Shown: positions 11,380 through 51,793 of the stretch, in pieces | How positions within the stretch are numbered: position 1 is the stretch's first letter | Layout: every line of letters begins with the position of its first letter | NCBI RefSeq assembly: GCF_006937785.1 | Contig: NZ_SJEE01000009.1 | Coordinates: 62,001-126,000, forward strand | DNA from: Pseudanabaena sp. UWO311 | Lineage (GTDB): Bacteria > Cyanobacteriota > Cyanobacteriia > Pseudanabaenales > Pseudanabaenaceae | Direction of reading: 5' to 3' | DNA: 64,000 nt | Notes under the pieces: model-generated | Database searches by the model: none | The model's input: the letters and a program-made list of their open reading frames with translations, nothing else | Told to the model about the DNA's origin: nothing | Made by a program: the position numbers and the translations under genes

Positions 11380-11406
11380 AAAAGCGACGCGGTGCGTCGC
11401 TTTTTT
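11380..11406 (+). terminator. Terminator after the aminotransferase gene
   Basis: AAAAGCGACGC, loop GGT, GCGTCGCTTTTTT. Strong GC stem followed by a T-run. Confidence 0.8.
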
Positions 11407-11992
11407 ATTGCCCAAATGCTAAAACTTGCTCAACCGTAAGGGCAAAGCCATCAACTACCGTCGATACAATTGGCATATCACCCGTAAAAATCTTGTCCTC
11501 ATACTGCCCCTCCACCCATAGACATATGGTTATTTGTCGCATTTCTGGATCGACAATCCAATATTCATTAATACCTCTAGCTGCATACTCTGTGCGTTTA
11601 TAGCGATAGTCGCGATCTCGATTTTCTTGCCCAGGAGAGACAACTTCAACTACCAAAATAGGCGATGGCATCGCCATTGAAACAAAGTTACGCGATGAGG
11701 CTTGTAAATATTCTTTTGATTCTTCCGTAACTATGATGAGATCGGGAATGCGACAAGTTACTCTTCTCCCTGAAACCTCAATCTCAGTGTTGTAAAGAAT
11801 TAAAGCAAGTGGGATATGCCTAGCAAACTCAAAAAGTAAAAACTTAGCAATACTGATATTCCCAAAAGATTCAGTTGGCACTTTGACTAATTCTCCGTTT
11901 ACAAGCTCATAGCGATCGTCTGTACCATCGTCATAACTGAGATACTCTTCTATGGTCATCAGTTTAGAGGGGCTAGCTATAGCTAAAGTCAT
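11405..11992 (-). CDS. Uma2-family (DUF820) putative endonuclease
   Basis: 195 residues from the ATG at 11992. It is a member of the PD-(D/E)xK Uma2 group that is massively expanded in cyanobacteria. It has the usual N-terminus (M-T-I-E-E-Y-L-S-Y and R-Y-E-L-V-N-G-E-L-V), R-I-P-D-L-I-I-V with the first acid, L-V-V-E-V-V-S-P-G with the Glu, and the R-Y-K-R-T-E-Y-A-A-R-G helix with the Lys. N-E-Y-W-I-V-D-P completes the fold. All candidate active-site residues are present. Function of the family is not established. Confidence 0.88.
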   Translation of the reverse strand: MTLAIASPSKLMTIEEYLSYDDGTDDRYELVNGELVKVPTESFGNISIAKFLLFEFARHIPLALILYNTEIEVSGRRVTCRIPDLIIVTEESKEYLQASSRNFVSMAMPSPILVVEVVSPGQENRDRDYRYKRTEYAARGINEYWIVDPEMRQITICLWVEGQYEDKIFTGDMPIVSTVVDGFALTVEQVLAFGQ

Positions 11993-12041
11993 AATTTCAG
12001 ATCCTCTATTACGCATAACAGGATTGTATCAAATCCAATTT

Positions 12042-12220: not shown

Positions 12221-13570
12221 ATGGGCATTCTTAACTCAATGTTTGCAAAATGGAAAACTCCTCAACAGGGGATGGGGAATGATCCAAATGTGCAGACCAT
12301 TCAAACTTCTAGCCCAGCCCAAACGCCATCTTCACCACAGCCAAATTCGGCAATGCAAAGATATACAGAGTTAGAAGCGGAATTAACGCGATCGCATCAG
12401 CCTCTACAAACTAAAACTATTGATAATCCACAAAAATCTGGGGGATTTAAGGAATTTGGTCAAAGGCTAATTTGGATCGGTGTTTTGGTGGGGATTCCTG
12501 TAGGAATTATTTATGTAGTGAATCTGCCCTATCCTATGATTCGACAGCCTGTGGCAAAGGTAGCTCCGCTTTTGCTATTACCAAGTAACATGGCGATCGA
12601 TACCAATTTTAAACAAGGACAATCAAGCGTTGAGCAAGCAAGACAATTAATCGAAGTTCCCACTAGTCCAGCTGATCTAGATCGAGGTGAAATCAAGCTT
12701 AAGGAAGGTAAAACGGCTCTAGATGCAATTCCTTTGTGGTATATCGCTGATTGGGCGGACTATTCGCGAGGATATTATGGTTGGGGCTATGATTGGCGAT
12801 TTACACCTGCGGGATTGCAAGCGGCGCGAATTAAGGCGGGACAGCTAGAGGCAAAAGTATTTCAAGAGAAAAATGCTCAGATTGCGTTGACTGGTGCTGA
12901 GCAAGAAATAACGATGGCAAAGACTGTATTTCAGCAAGCCGCGAAACCGACAGATAAGAAAATCGCGATCCAAAACTGGCAAGCAGCTATCGATCGCTTG
13001 GCACAGATTCCACCACAAACGATGGCAGGACGCAGGGCGCAGCAATTGATCGGCACTTCGACTAGGGATTTAAAGGAAGTGGGTGGGCTTGCCGCAGGAA
13101 ATGAGCAATCCTTGTCATTGATTAGTGCTGCTGAAGGATTTGCCAAAAAAGCCGCTGAATCTGGTCGTAATCCGCCGCATCCAAGCGCTCGTTGGGCTGA
13201 AATTGCCACAATGTGGCAAGAGGCGATTAAACGCTTAGAAAGCATTCCTGCTAGTGATGTGCAGGGTTATGCTGAAGCCCAAAGACAGCTAGCAGAATAT
13301 CGATCTAGTCTGTCGGAAGTGCGAGTAAGATTACAGAATGAACAGGAAGCTGTGCGAGCTTTGGATCAGGCAAATCGGAATTTGGCAACTCTATGGGCAA
13401 GTTTGCCTAAAGATGGCAAAGAGCTAAATCGCAATCAAGCGATCGGCAATTTCTCGGCTGTGAACAATGAGCTAGAGAAAATCAAAAATGGAACTACGGT
13501 CTATTTGCAAGCGAAAAAAGTGCAACTCGAAGTTCAGGATCAATTGAGATTATTACAACAGGCAAAATAA
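12221..13570 (+). CDS. Single-TM coiled-coil protein, conserved cyanobacterial type
   Basis: 449 residues. Residues 1-80 are polar and low-complexity. One membrane segment (L-I-W-I-G-V-L-V-G-I-P-V-G-I-I-Y-V-V) lies at ~83-104. The rest is a long, helical, Ala/Gln/Glu-rich region with a Y-Y-G-W-G-Y-D-W-R-F-T motif near residue 190 and several helix-pair stretches (A-Q-I-A-L-T-G-A-E-Q-E-I; W-Q-A-A-I-D-R-L-A-Q-I-P repeated as W-Q-E-A-I-K-R-L-E-S-I-P). The repeated W-x-x-A-I-x-R-L-x-x-I-P units suggest TPR-like solenoid folding. I do not recognise a named family. Confidence 0.7.
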   Translation: MGILNSMFAKWKTPQQGMGNDPNVQTIQTSSPAQTPSSPQPNSAMQRYTELEAELTRSHQPLQTKTIDNPQKSGGFKEFGQRLIWIGVLVGIPVGIIYVVNLPYPMIRQPVAKVAPLLLLPSNMAIDTNFKQGQSSVEQARQLIEVPTSPADLDRGEIKLKEGKTALDAIPLWYIADWADYSRGYYGWGYDWRFTPAGLQAARIKAGQLEAKVFQEKNAQIALTGAEQEITMAKTVFQQAAKPTDKKIAIQNWQAAIDRLAQIPPQTMAGRRAQQLIGTSTRDLKEVGGLAAGNEQSLSLISAAEGFAKKAAESGRNPPHPSARWAEIATMWQEAIKRLESIPASDVQGYAEAQRQLAEYRSSLSEVRVRLQNEQEAVRALDQANRNLATLWASLPKDGKELNRNQAIGNFSAVNNELEKIKNGTTVYLQAKKVQLEVQDQLRLLQQAK

Positions 13571-13575
13571 TCAGT

Positions 13576-13610
13576 AAAAGACATATAGCGCAAAGTGCTA
13601 TGTCTTTTTA
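13576..13610 (+). terminator. Terminator between two plus-strand genes
   Basis: AAAAGACATA, a 15-base inner part with GCGCAAAGTGC, TGTCTTTTT. It separates the coiled-coil gene from the P-type ATPase relative. Confidence 0.65.
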
Positions 13611-13625
13611 TTCACGGATAAAACG

Positions 13626-15587
13626 ATGACCAAATTTGACTTTCTATCGGACACTCAAAAACCTTGGCACTACATGGATGTAGATCAGGTGTTGGCAGCT
13701 TTAGAATCTTCGATAGAAGGTCTATCCTATGTGAATGCGAGACAAAGATTACGACATTTGGGAGCCAATAAATTACCGCGATCGCGTCCAATCAGCAAAG
13801 TTCTCATACAACCTTTAATTAATCCTTTAACTTATCTATTATTAGGGTCAGCAATTTATTTGCAATGGAATGGAGCAGAAGGATGGGCGCTAATTTCTGT
13901 GGGCGTACTACATGGTGCGATCGGAATTGGCATTTCAATATGGTCAATTAAAACCAAGGCAAAAGTCAGTCGAGATCGCCCTCAACGCCGCCAAAATGAA
14001 CCTTCTAATTCGGTAATGGTACTACGCGATCGCGAAGAAATGGAAGTACCATCGCGAGATTTAGTGTTAGGTGATGTGGTGGTGTTGCGAGAAGGCGATC
14101 GCCCTAATGTCGATTTGCGAGTAATGGAGACATCAGACGACTTACTGGTAAATCAAACCAATTTGGGAGGTGAAGCAATTTGTGCTAAGCGAGCCGATCT
14201 TACCTTTGAGGAGAACACGCCCCCCCTTGAATGCAGCAACATGATCTATGCGGGGACAGAAATTTCCGCAGGAAGCGTTAAGGGGCTTGTGATTGCCACA
14301 AGTCGTTTCACCCAAGAACAATCGGCTCTGGTAAAGGAAAAGCCATTTTCAGTTATCCATGCCGAGTTGCATCAGCTGCGTCAGGTCTGGATTGGGCTGC
14401 TGCTGCTCGTGACGACTACAGCGGTCGGCTTTGCCTGGCAACGTGGAATTACGATCAATGCGATGACTGCGGCTGCCCTCATTGTTAGCACCTATCCTCA
14501 AAATTTGTTGCGGATTGCGACTCAGGTTCAGTTGTTTGGAATGCGCGATCTTGCTAAACAGCGAATATGGGCAAGATTTCCTTCTATCTTAGATGCGATC
14601 GCTAGAGTGACAACAATTGTGCCAATTGTCGAATCGGATGTAGTATTGAGCTTTGATAATTTGAGTCAGGCTGGTATTGAATGGCAGGGATTAATCAGAG
14701 CTTCAGAAGATGATGCTACTGCATTTAGTGAAGTAATTGGCATTGAAACCCATAGCTACTTTGATGCTCCTCAAGAGAAGATTCGTCAATGGCAAGATGG
14801 TCGCCAAAAATCTAACCGAAAATCTTTAAATGCTGTTGCGGTAATAGGGAATGATATTGAAGATATTTTCTTGTTGAGAGCCGCCGATGTTGGAATCTGC
14901 GATCGCACCTGTCGCAAAGAATTGCAAGATAGTGCAGGAATAATTTTACCTAAAGAAGATTTCCATTATTTACCGACCGCCATACTCGAAGGAAGAGCCA
15001 CATTTGATCGGTTACAACGTACTGCACTGCTCACTGCCACTAGTGCTTTTACCTTAGCGGTACTAGCCCTTATGGATACCGCCGCAGGATTCTCAATGCC
15101 TCCGTTGCAGATAATTTGGGTAGGCGCGATCGCCACACCTATTGTGGCTTTTCCTCTAGTTCTAGAACCAACTCATGAGAGCCTCTTAAATCAACCAGCA
15201 CACCGTTTTCAAACCATGTTGCGTTCTAGTAATTACCTTCGTATTTTGCTAACTGTTACTACGACAATCACGGCTATTGCCGTAGTTTTCTGGCTGAAAT
15301 ATCAAGGTCAAGTCTCGATGTTCTCCCAAGCGCGATCAATGGCATTTGTTACCCTTGGGTTTAGTCAAATTTTCCACGCTTGTGCGATCGCTCGCCACAG
15401 CATATTAAACAACTTTCCTTTGATGCTCAGTATATTTTTCGTCACAATCTGTCAAATTGCCTTTGTGCAAGTCCCTTGGTTTGGCGATCTGATGGCAACA
15501 GTTCCTTTAAATGCGGTTGAATGGACAATCGCAATTCTCAGCGCCACGGCGGTGTTTTGGGTGCAAGAGCTAATCAAAACTGGGTAG
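13626..15587 (+). CDS. P-type ATPase relative lacking the phosphorylation site (pseudo-pump)
   Basis: 653 residues with the layout of a P2-type cation pump but much of the catalytic part gone. Present are the cation-ATPase N-terminal domain ([10 protein letters not shown] to [10 protein letters not shown]), the first membrane pair, the actuator domain ([20 protein letters not shown]) and the C-terminal membrane helices. The actuator T-G-E-S loop reads L-G-G-E (~180-183). The P-E-G-L position reads Y-P-Q-N-L (~290). The D-K-T-G-T phosphorylation motif is absent where it should follow at ~326-344, and the N domain is almost wholly missing. The G-D-G-x-N-D hinge reads G-N-D-I-E-D (408-413), with the first Asp replaced by Asn. 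Active family members run near 900 residues. The frame is clean across 1.96 kb, so it looks selected rather than decayed. Confidence 0.85.
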
Positions 15588-16919: not shown

Positions 16920-16974
16920 AAAACCCAAAAAGTATGAGGCGGCGCTCCGCGCCGCCTCATACTTTTTGGGTTTT
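16920..16974. repeat. AAACCCAAAA-type long palindrome
   Basis: AAAACCCAAAAAGTATGAGG, a GCGGCGC-TCC-GCGCCGC core and the exact complement ending CTTTTTGGGTTTT: a perfect ~26-bp stem. It is separate from the ispH terminator and upstream of ahcY. Confidence 0.8.
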
Positions 16975-51734: not shown

Positions 51735-51793
51735 CTGTCGCCACCCAACCCCAAAGAAGCTTGAGTCGGGCGCGTAGCGCCGCCTCAAGCTAG
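51735..51793. repeat. Imperfect palindrome upstream of aguB
   Basis: CACCCAACCCCAAAGAAGCT, a GGGCGCGTAGCGCC core and a partial complement (CTCAAGCTAGCG). Decayed arm pairing. It lies between divergent yidD and aguB. Confidence 0.5.

Follow-up and report, generated by a model that had tools for sequence, protein, structure and literature searches.

The locus and its genes

The window analyzed in this study is a stretch of 64,000 nucleotides from the cyanobacterium Pseudanabaena sp. UWO311 (contig NZ_SJEE01000009.1, positions 62,001 to 126,000). At positions 13626-15587 of its forward strand, stop codon included, lies an open reading frame that begins with ATG and encodes 653 amino acids; 653 open codons at exactly these positions had been given in the preliminary description. 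From the reading frame, its homology, its orthologues and the selection acting on it, the gene was annotated as a pseudo P-type ATPase gene, and its product is referred to here as the pseudo-pump. Directly upstream on the same strand is gene 12221 (12221-13570), which encodes 449 amino acids and has no Pfam family. As judged by eye, its product has one membrane stretch; a long part of it looks helical, and no NCBIfam model exceeded its cut-off. A gene for a putative nuclease of the Uma2 family, assigned with Pfam, occupies 11405-12016 of the reverse strand between gene 12221 and gene 10220, which we take to be aminotransferase-like. Some but not all of the compared loci have a relative of the Uma2-family gene at that position. 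Within the 55 bp that separate gene 12221 from the pseudo-pump gene lies a terminator-like hairpin with a T-rich tail (13583-13603, forward strand); therefore, the two genes may not form one simple transcript in this genome. Downstream of the pseudo-pump gene are ispH and ahcY. Between these two, at 16924-16970, there is a perfect palindrome of 20 bp that has a T-rich tail on each strand, perhaps a two-way terminator. Its core has no second exact copy in the window, and one copy with 2 mismatches was found at 51777.

The pseudo-pump matched Cation_ATPase_N (PF00690), E1-E2_ATPase (PF00122) and Cation_ATPase_C (PF00689) of Pfam-A, all above cut-off, and the three families recurred in 16/16 aligned orthologues. 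Residues 313-490 matched no Pfam-A family; active pumps have their P and N domains there. The general P-type ATPase model of NCBIfam, TIGR01494, was barely exceeded (63.5 bits against a cut-off of 62.3). The best-scoring NCBIfam model was TIGR01522 for PMR1-type Ca2+ ATPases, with 110.3 bits against a cut-off of 798.3, and the pseudo-pump stayed far under the cut-off of each of the 12 more specific models among the matches listed. The top PDB sequence match was human SPCA1 (8iww, E 4.2e-28), and PHROGs returned one generic ATPase family. No plasmid-borne copy was found in PLSDB at E<=1e-30. These results indicate that the 653-residue protein is homologous to the P2-type (SPCA/SERCA-like) pumps. 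It is thus recognizable as a homologue of P-type ATPases, but judged by its sequence it is not a functional member.

Loss of the N domain, catalytic motifs and cation-site residues

The pseudo-pump and its orthologues were aligned with active P2 pumps from related genomes. The active set (n=26) was selected by DKTGT, so that the presence of this motif in 26/26 holds by construction; 19 of the pumps were aligned, and L060, L070, L077, L079, L080, L081 and L086 were left out because they were short or partial, redundant, or belonged to another type. The pseudo-pump was co-linear with the 19 active pumps through M1-M2, the A domain, M3-M4 and the first strand of the P domain. After this strand, DKTGT and the N domain were skipped, and the proteins aligned again from the second P-domain half onwards, M5-M10 included. 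The interval between the fixed points flanking the N domain was 16 residues in 30/30 full-length orthologues versus 189-278 residues in the 19 active pumps. The N domain had been described earlier as nearly gone; its loss was confirmed, and it is in fact wholly gone, with the 16-residue linker in its place. A second trimming was found in the P domain, where the pseudo-pumps have 9 residues and the active pumps 34-38. Since the linker has a constant length in all 30 orthologues and these are under purifying selection, the architecture is far from chance.

All parts of the protein could be assigned on the forward strand. The N-terminal segment (residues 1-55, 13626-13790) is Cation_ATPase_N-like, with invariant residues at W14 and H15 and in the R39-R43 region. 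It is followed by M1-M2 (residues 56-118, 13791-13979), placed by the alignment and the structure model, and by the actuator (A) domain (residues 119-235, 13980-14330), placed by the model and the Pfam E1-E2_ATPase match at 128-312. M3-M4 (residues 236-317, 14331-14576) and a P-domain core without the N domain (residues 318-447, 14577-14966) were again assigned from alignment and model, and M5-M10 (residues 448-653, 14967-15584) additionally from Cation_ATPase_C of Pfam. The absence of DKTGT noted in the preliminary description was confirmed, and the three altered motifs named there, LGGE, YPQNL and GNDIED, were all present. In the alignment columns, LGGE (residues 180-183, 14163-14174) replaces the TGES loop, and YPQNL (residues 290-294) is part of YPQNLLR (residues 290-296, 14493-14513), which replaces xPEGLPA. 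The linker (residues 334-349, 14625-14672), which includes E336, S337 and D338, replaces DKTGT and the entire N domain. R358-D363 (14697-14714) lies at the former TGD loop, and GNDIED (residues 408-413, 14847-14864) replaces GDGxND.

We found none of the motifs DKTGT, TGES/TGEA, TGD, GDGxND and the KGA/KGS of the N domain in the 30 full-length orthologues. The equivalent of the phosphorylated residue D351 is I, L or V when the alignment is read ungapped (residue 334). The TGES loop is mostly GGEA, with Thr replaced by Gly in 29/30, and its Glu is retained as E (23) or D (5) in 28/30. The cation site was compared at E309, A313, N768, E771, N796, T799 and D800, in what we take to be SERCA numbering. 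In M4, E309 is replaced by Q (Gln292) in 29/30 and by K in one, and A313 by Arg (R296) in 30/30. In M5, N768 is A, S or L and E771 is L, I or T. In M6, N796 is G in all 30, T799 is A or V, and D800 is T in 29 and M in one; the T799 and D800 positions vary among active pumps too. Thus six cation-site residues (E309, N768, E771, N796, T799 and D800) are replaced in 30/30 orthologues, a count that refers to M4-M6. A previous report describes E309Q of SERCA as a loss-of-function mutation (PMC7313052), and the two M4 changes, E309Q and A313R, would make the former cation site unable to serve a pump. Because both the motifs and these residues are substituted in the orthologues, the catalytic centre is dismantled, and so is the cation site of M4-M6. 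Judged on these replacements, the pseudo-pump cannot undergo a phosphorylation cycle, in agreement with the earlier statement that it could not run the normal pump cycle.

Structure prediction had been proposed as a check, and an AlphaFold2 model was obtained with a pLDDT of 86.3 and a pTM of 0.83. The P-domain core was present in the model and the N domain was absent. Core strands were predicted at residues 328-335, 352-357, 374-377, 403-407, 422-426 and 439-441. The best structural match was SPCA1 (7yag_A; Z 35.4, rmsd 7.4, 620 residues), which agrees with a P-type fold. However, the underlying alignment of 42 rows combined 23 family members with 19 active pumps, and an earlier prediction from 16 orthologues alone, which was not used, reached a pLDDT of only 55.1; the modelled fold therefore leans on the active pumps and is partly imposed by them. 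Within a model that has 19 active pumps among its 42 rows, ten membrane helices, the A domain and a HAD-like P-domain core are predicted to be retained. The preliminary description had recognized that the membrane and actuator parts remain, and had missed the P-domain core.

Conserved residues in the former active site and membrane part

Across the orthologues, 101 of the 653 alignment columns were invariant. Within the former catalytic loops, S337, R358 (at the Gly of TGD), D363 and R427 were identical in 30/30 orthologues, and E336 and D338 in 29/30 each. D410, E412 and D413 were found in 28/30, 26/30 and 27/30, respectively. These conserved loops could be a new pocket, or they could have a structural role alone. 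In M4, R296 and Q302 were present in 30/30 orthologues, Q292 and N293 were conserved, and the proline was retained in 30/30. The summed mean net charge of M1-M2, M3-M4, the M5 stalk and M5-M10 was about +11.9 in the pseudo-pumps versus +4.4 in the 19 active pumps, and the A domain was more negative (-6.6 versus -3.5). Charges of whole proteins are not comparable between the two groups, as those of the active pumps comprise the N domain.

A channel-like pseudoenzyme had been among the roles proposed earlier. A cation channel is disfavoured because none of the 30 orthologues retains any of the six cation-site residues in M4-M6, whereas passive transport of something else is conceivable. The pseudo-pump might be a passive transporter, lipid carrier, scramblase or channel whose membrane part conducts a substrate without ATP, with the kinked M4 (YPQN), Arg296 and Gln302 forming a polar path for anions or lipid head groups. 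The conserved M4 residues and proline would fit such a path, as would the somewhat more positive membrane segments, on which purifying selection acts as it does elsewhere in the protein (NG86). A precedent may be seen in human TMEM94, whose cytoplasmic band is reported to be strongly positive and whose M3/M4/M5/M7 gorge is reported to hold a lipid (PMC12134183). However, the replaced cation site and the more negative A domain argue against it, and we regard passive transport as a somewhat unlikely function.

Distribution, selection and age

The pseudo-pump was found at full length in 25/26 genomes of the genus Pseudanabaena; the only miss, G006, is 82% complete. It was also full-length in 5/12 other genomes of the family, which belong to four genera (g4, g5, g7 and g8), and a fragment at a contig end was detected in G035 of a fifth, g6. 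It was not found in G026, G027, G030, G033, G034 and G037 of the family, and outside the family it was found in 0/350 sampled genomes of the class at E<=1e-45. In total, 31/388 class genomes sampled were carriers at this threshold, with up to three candidates scored per genome. A scan of 84,980 species with two peptide patterns yielded confirmed loci that were all cyanobacterial. The 21 titled orthologue loci comprised 14 from Pseudanabaena, one from Phormidium tenue, one from Pseudanabaenaceae and five from less precisely named cyanobacteria.

Selection was examined in 14 chosen orthologue pairs with the NG86 method. One near-identical pair, L023/L024, was set aside since its value of 0.487 depended on almost no changes. 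In the 13 informative pairs, which share sequences and are thus not independent, and in three of which dS exceeds 1, dN/dS was 0.047-0.106 overall and 0.044-0.130 for residues 318-470. Higher values were obtained from the few changes in residues 1-55, with 0.466 in L006/L007 (dS 0.05) and 0.328 in L013/L012.

These data bear on whether the gene is a decaying pump copy or an assembly artefact. The loss of catalytic and cation-site residues would be expected of a decaying copy, and it had been stated beforehand that intact DKTGT in orthologues of close relatives would point to recent decay. None of the 30 full-length orthologues has DKTGT. All are open and carry the same losses, down to 42% identity; they come from assemblies of both named strains and MAGs, and dN/dS is about 0.1 or less (0.05-0.11 when rounded). 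As the frame is unbroken and selection is not relaxed, decay or artefact was rejected, and we assign it a negligible probability. These results demonstrate that the pseudo-pump is old, lineage-specific and under strong selection, and not a decayed copy. It fails every catalytic feature of a pump tested here, yet it is maintained.

The age of the gene was further examined with trees. In a tree of IspH and AhcY, whose frames were picked by similarity, genus g3, which lacks the gene, stands beside g8, which has it, with a support of 92; therefore, g3 has probably lost the pseudo-pump. Genus g2, which also lacks the gene, is the first to branch off, although weakly supported (41-65), and the gene may have arisen before or after g2. 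A gene tree of L082, one of the active pumps, was discarded as a species tree because paralogues mix in it and one outgroup row (G042) was translated in a wrong frame. In a tree with active pumps, the pseudo-pumps form a monophyletic clade with a long stem of 1.33, beside the pumps L077/L078/L085, which are likewise on a long branch of 1.59. No sister pump is named, since rerooting made the support labels in that part of the tree unreliable.

Active pumps and neighbouring genes

Co-occurrence with an active paralogue had been suggested as a check, one of the proposed roles being that of a partner to such a pump. In this genome, 8 genes encode E1-E2 ATPases, and the 7 besides the pseudo-pump carry DKTGT. 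Four active P2 pumps were compared at E<=1e-200 with the 38 genomes of the family, where L082 matched 37, L083 26, L084 18 and L085 10; some of these matches are cross-matches between paralogues. The L082 type (G000:C29) had a strong relative in 30/31 carriers of the pseudo-pump and also in 7/7 non-carriers of the family, so its co-occurrence is unspecific. It is the only co-occurrence candidate among the four pumps, and a weak one. The pseudo-pump could thus pair with an L082-type pump, for example, and alter its activity as a regulatory partner. Its presence in nearly all carriers is what favours this reading, which we consider unlikely, as the L082 type is also found in non-carriers, no gene linkage was seen, and the matches in distant genera (57-65% identity) may be paralogues.

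We then considered the neighbouring genes. At E<=0.001, 69/97 genomes had a relative of gene 12221, in many cases a partial one, and such relatives occur in many cyanobacteria. A full-length relative was found in 14/26 genomes of the genus; in 14/14 of these it immediately precedes the pseudo-pump gene in the same orientation, and just a few bases separate the two genes in G007 and G010. A part-time link between both genes would fit the 14/14 adjacency. Obligate pairing was not supported because gene 12221 is absent from 11/25 carriers of the genus and a relative is located elsewhere in G029 and G032. An operon with ispH was likewise not supported; the two genes are adjacent here and in G018 and G019, and this was not seen at the other compared loci, some of which end early. 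The loci of the four other genera had no neighbour in common with the window, either by tblastn or by eye. No N domain encoded by a neighbouring gene was recognized by eye in the ORF beginnings of eight loci.

The pseudo-pump may be a structural protein or chaperone that uses only its ten-helix scaffold, together with a non-pump partner in envelope or thylakoid assembly, for example, or with the gene 12221 product in part of the genus. Its restriction to one cyanobacterial family and the lack of pump-specific co-occurrence would suit this, as would the position of gene 12221 wherever the genus has it. However, the incomplete and partly displaced occurrence of gene 12221 is difficult to reconcile with such a partnership, and the invariant residues in the former active-site loops are not explained by that role alone. 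We therefore hold this explanation to be very improbable.

Discussion

In this study, we found that a P-type ATPase homologue without an N domain is maintained in a cyanobacterial family. The protein is kept under strong selection although it has no ATP-binding domain, no phosphorylation site and lacks key ion-binding residues; therefore, the pump fold probably serves another purpose in this group. We lean, with little more than even confidence, towards an ancient lineage-specific pseudo-pump that works as a non-pumping regulator or scaffold and senses a ligand or a partner, a role deduced from the pattern of losses and conservation. A P2-type (SPCA/SERCA-like) ATPase would have lost its N domain by clean excision, and the catalytic motifs and the M4-M6 cation site would have been lost together with it. 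One cyanobacterial family would have kept the remnant as a membrane protein that does not pump, and its ten-helix bundle and A and P domains would offer a surface or a ligand pocket. Such a pocket would probably derive from the remodelled old active site, with E336-S337-D338, R358, D363, D410-E412-D413 and R427, and binding would be relayed to a membrane-embedded partner protein. A more specific proposal, to be taken as tentative, is a new kind of membrane receptor or regulator in which the old phosphorylation site would have turned into a conserved pocket of E336-S337-D338, R358, D363 and R427 that senses the ligand or partner and still drives movement between the A domain, the P domain and the membrane, by binding instead of ATP.

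Pseudoenzymes are well known among kinases and proteases. To our knowledge, they are hardly known among ion pumps. Our literature search found no bacterial P-type ATPase without an N domain among the matches listed, and no paper that paired "P-type ATPase" with "pseudoenzyme". The N domain was dropped at a fixed joint, and in six genera, including one represented by a fragment, the free-standing remainder has stayed under purifying selection. This natural experiment reveals the part of the pump fold that is of use when ATP plays no role, and it could clarify the coupling of the A and P domains to the membrane.

Among eukaryotic proteins, human TMEM94/ERMA of the ER is similar by description. 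It is reported to have a P-type fold and an actuator-like domain without TGES, with SPCA as the closest known pump; in contrast to the pseudo-pump, it still has an N-like domain (CTD3), and D417 is proposed as its phosphorylation site (PMC12134183). Its status as a pump is disputed. The group that described its charged band and bound lipid argues that it is no ATPase (PMC12134183), whereas another group reports ATP-driven Mg2+ uptake (PMC13322241). TMEM94 was not among the PDB sequence or structure matches listed for the pseudo-pump, and the two may still be related. PfGCbeta, an apicomplexan guanylate cyclase, has a degenerate P4-ATPase-like domain; this domain is eukaryotic and fused to a cyclase, whereas the pseudo-pump is bacterial and stands alone. 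The active P2 pumps L082-L085 of the same genome share the membrane, A and P layout with the pseudo-pump at 21-22% identity over the alignment, and all four have the DKTGT that the pseudo-pump lacks. The SPCA1/PMR1-type Ca2+/Mn2+ ATPases (P2A) resemble it most by the best PDB, NCBIfam and structural matches. Compared with them, the pseudo-pump is without the N domain, the phosphorylated Asp and TGES, and its M4-M6 cation site is replaced.
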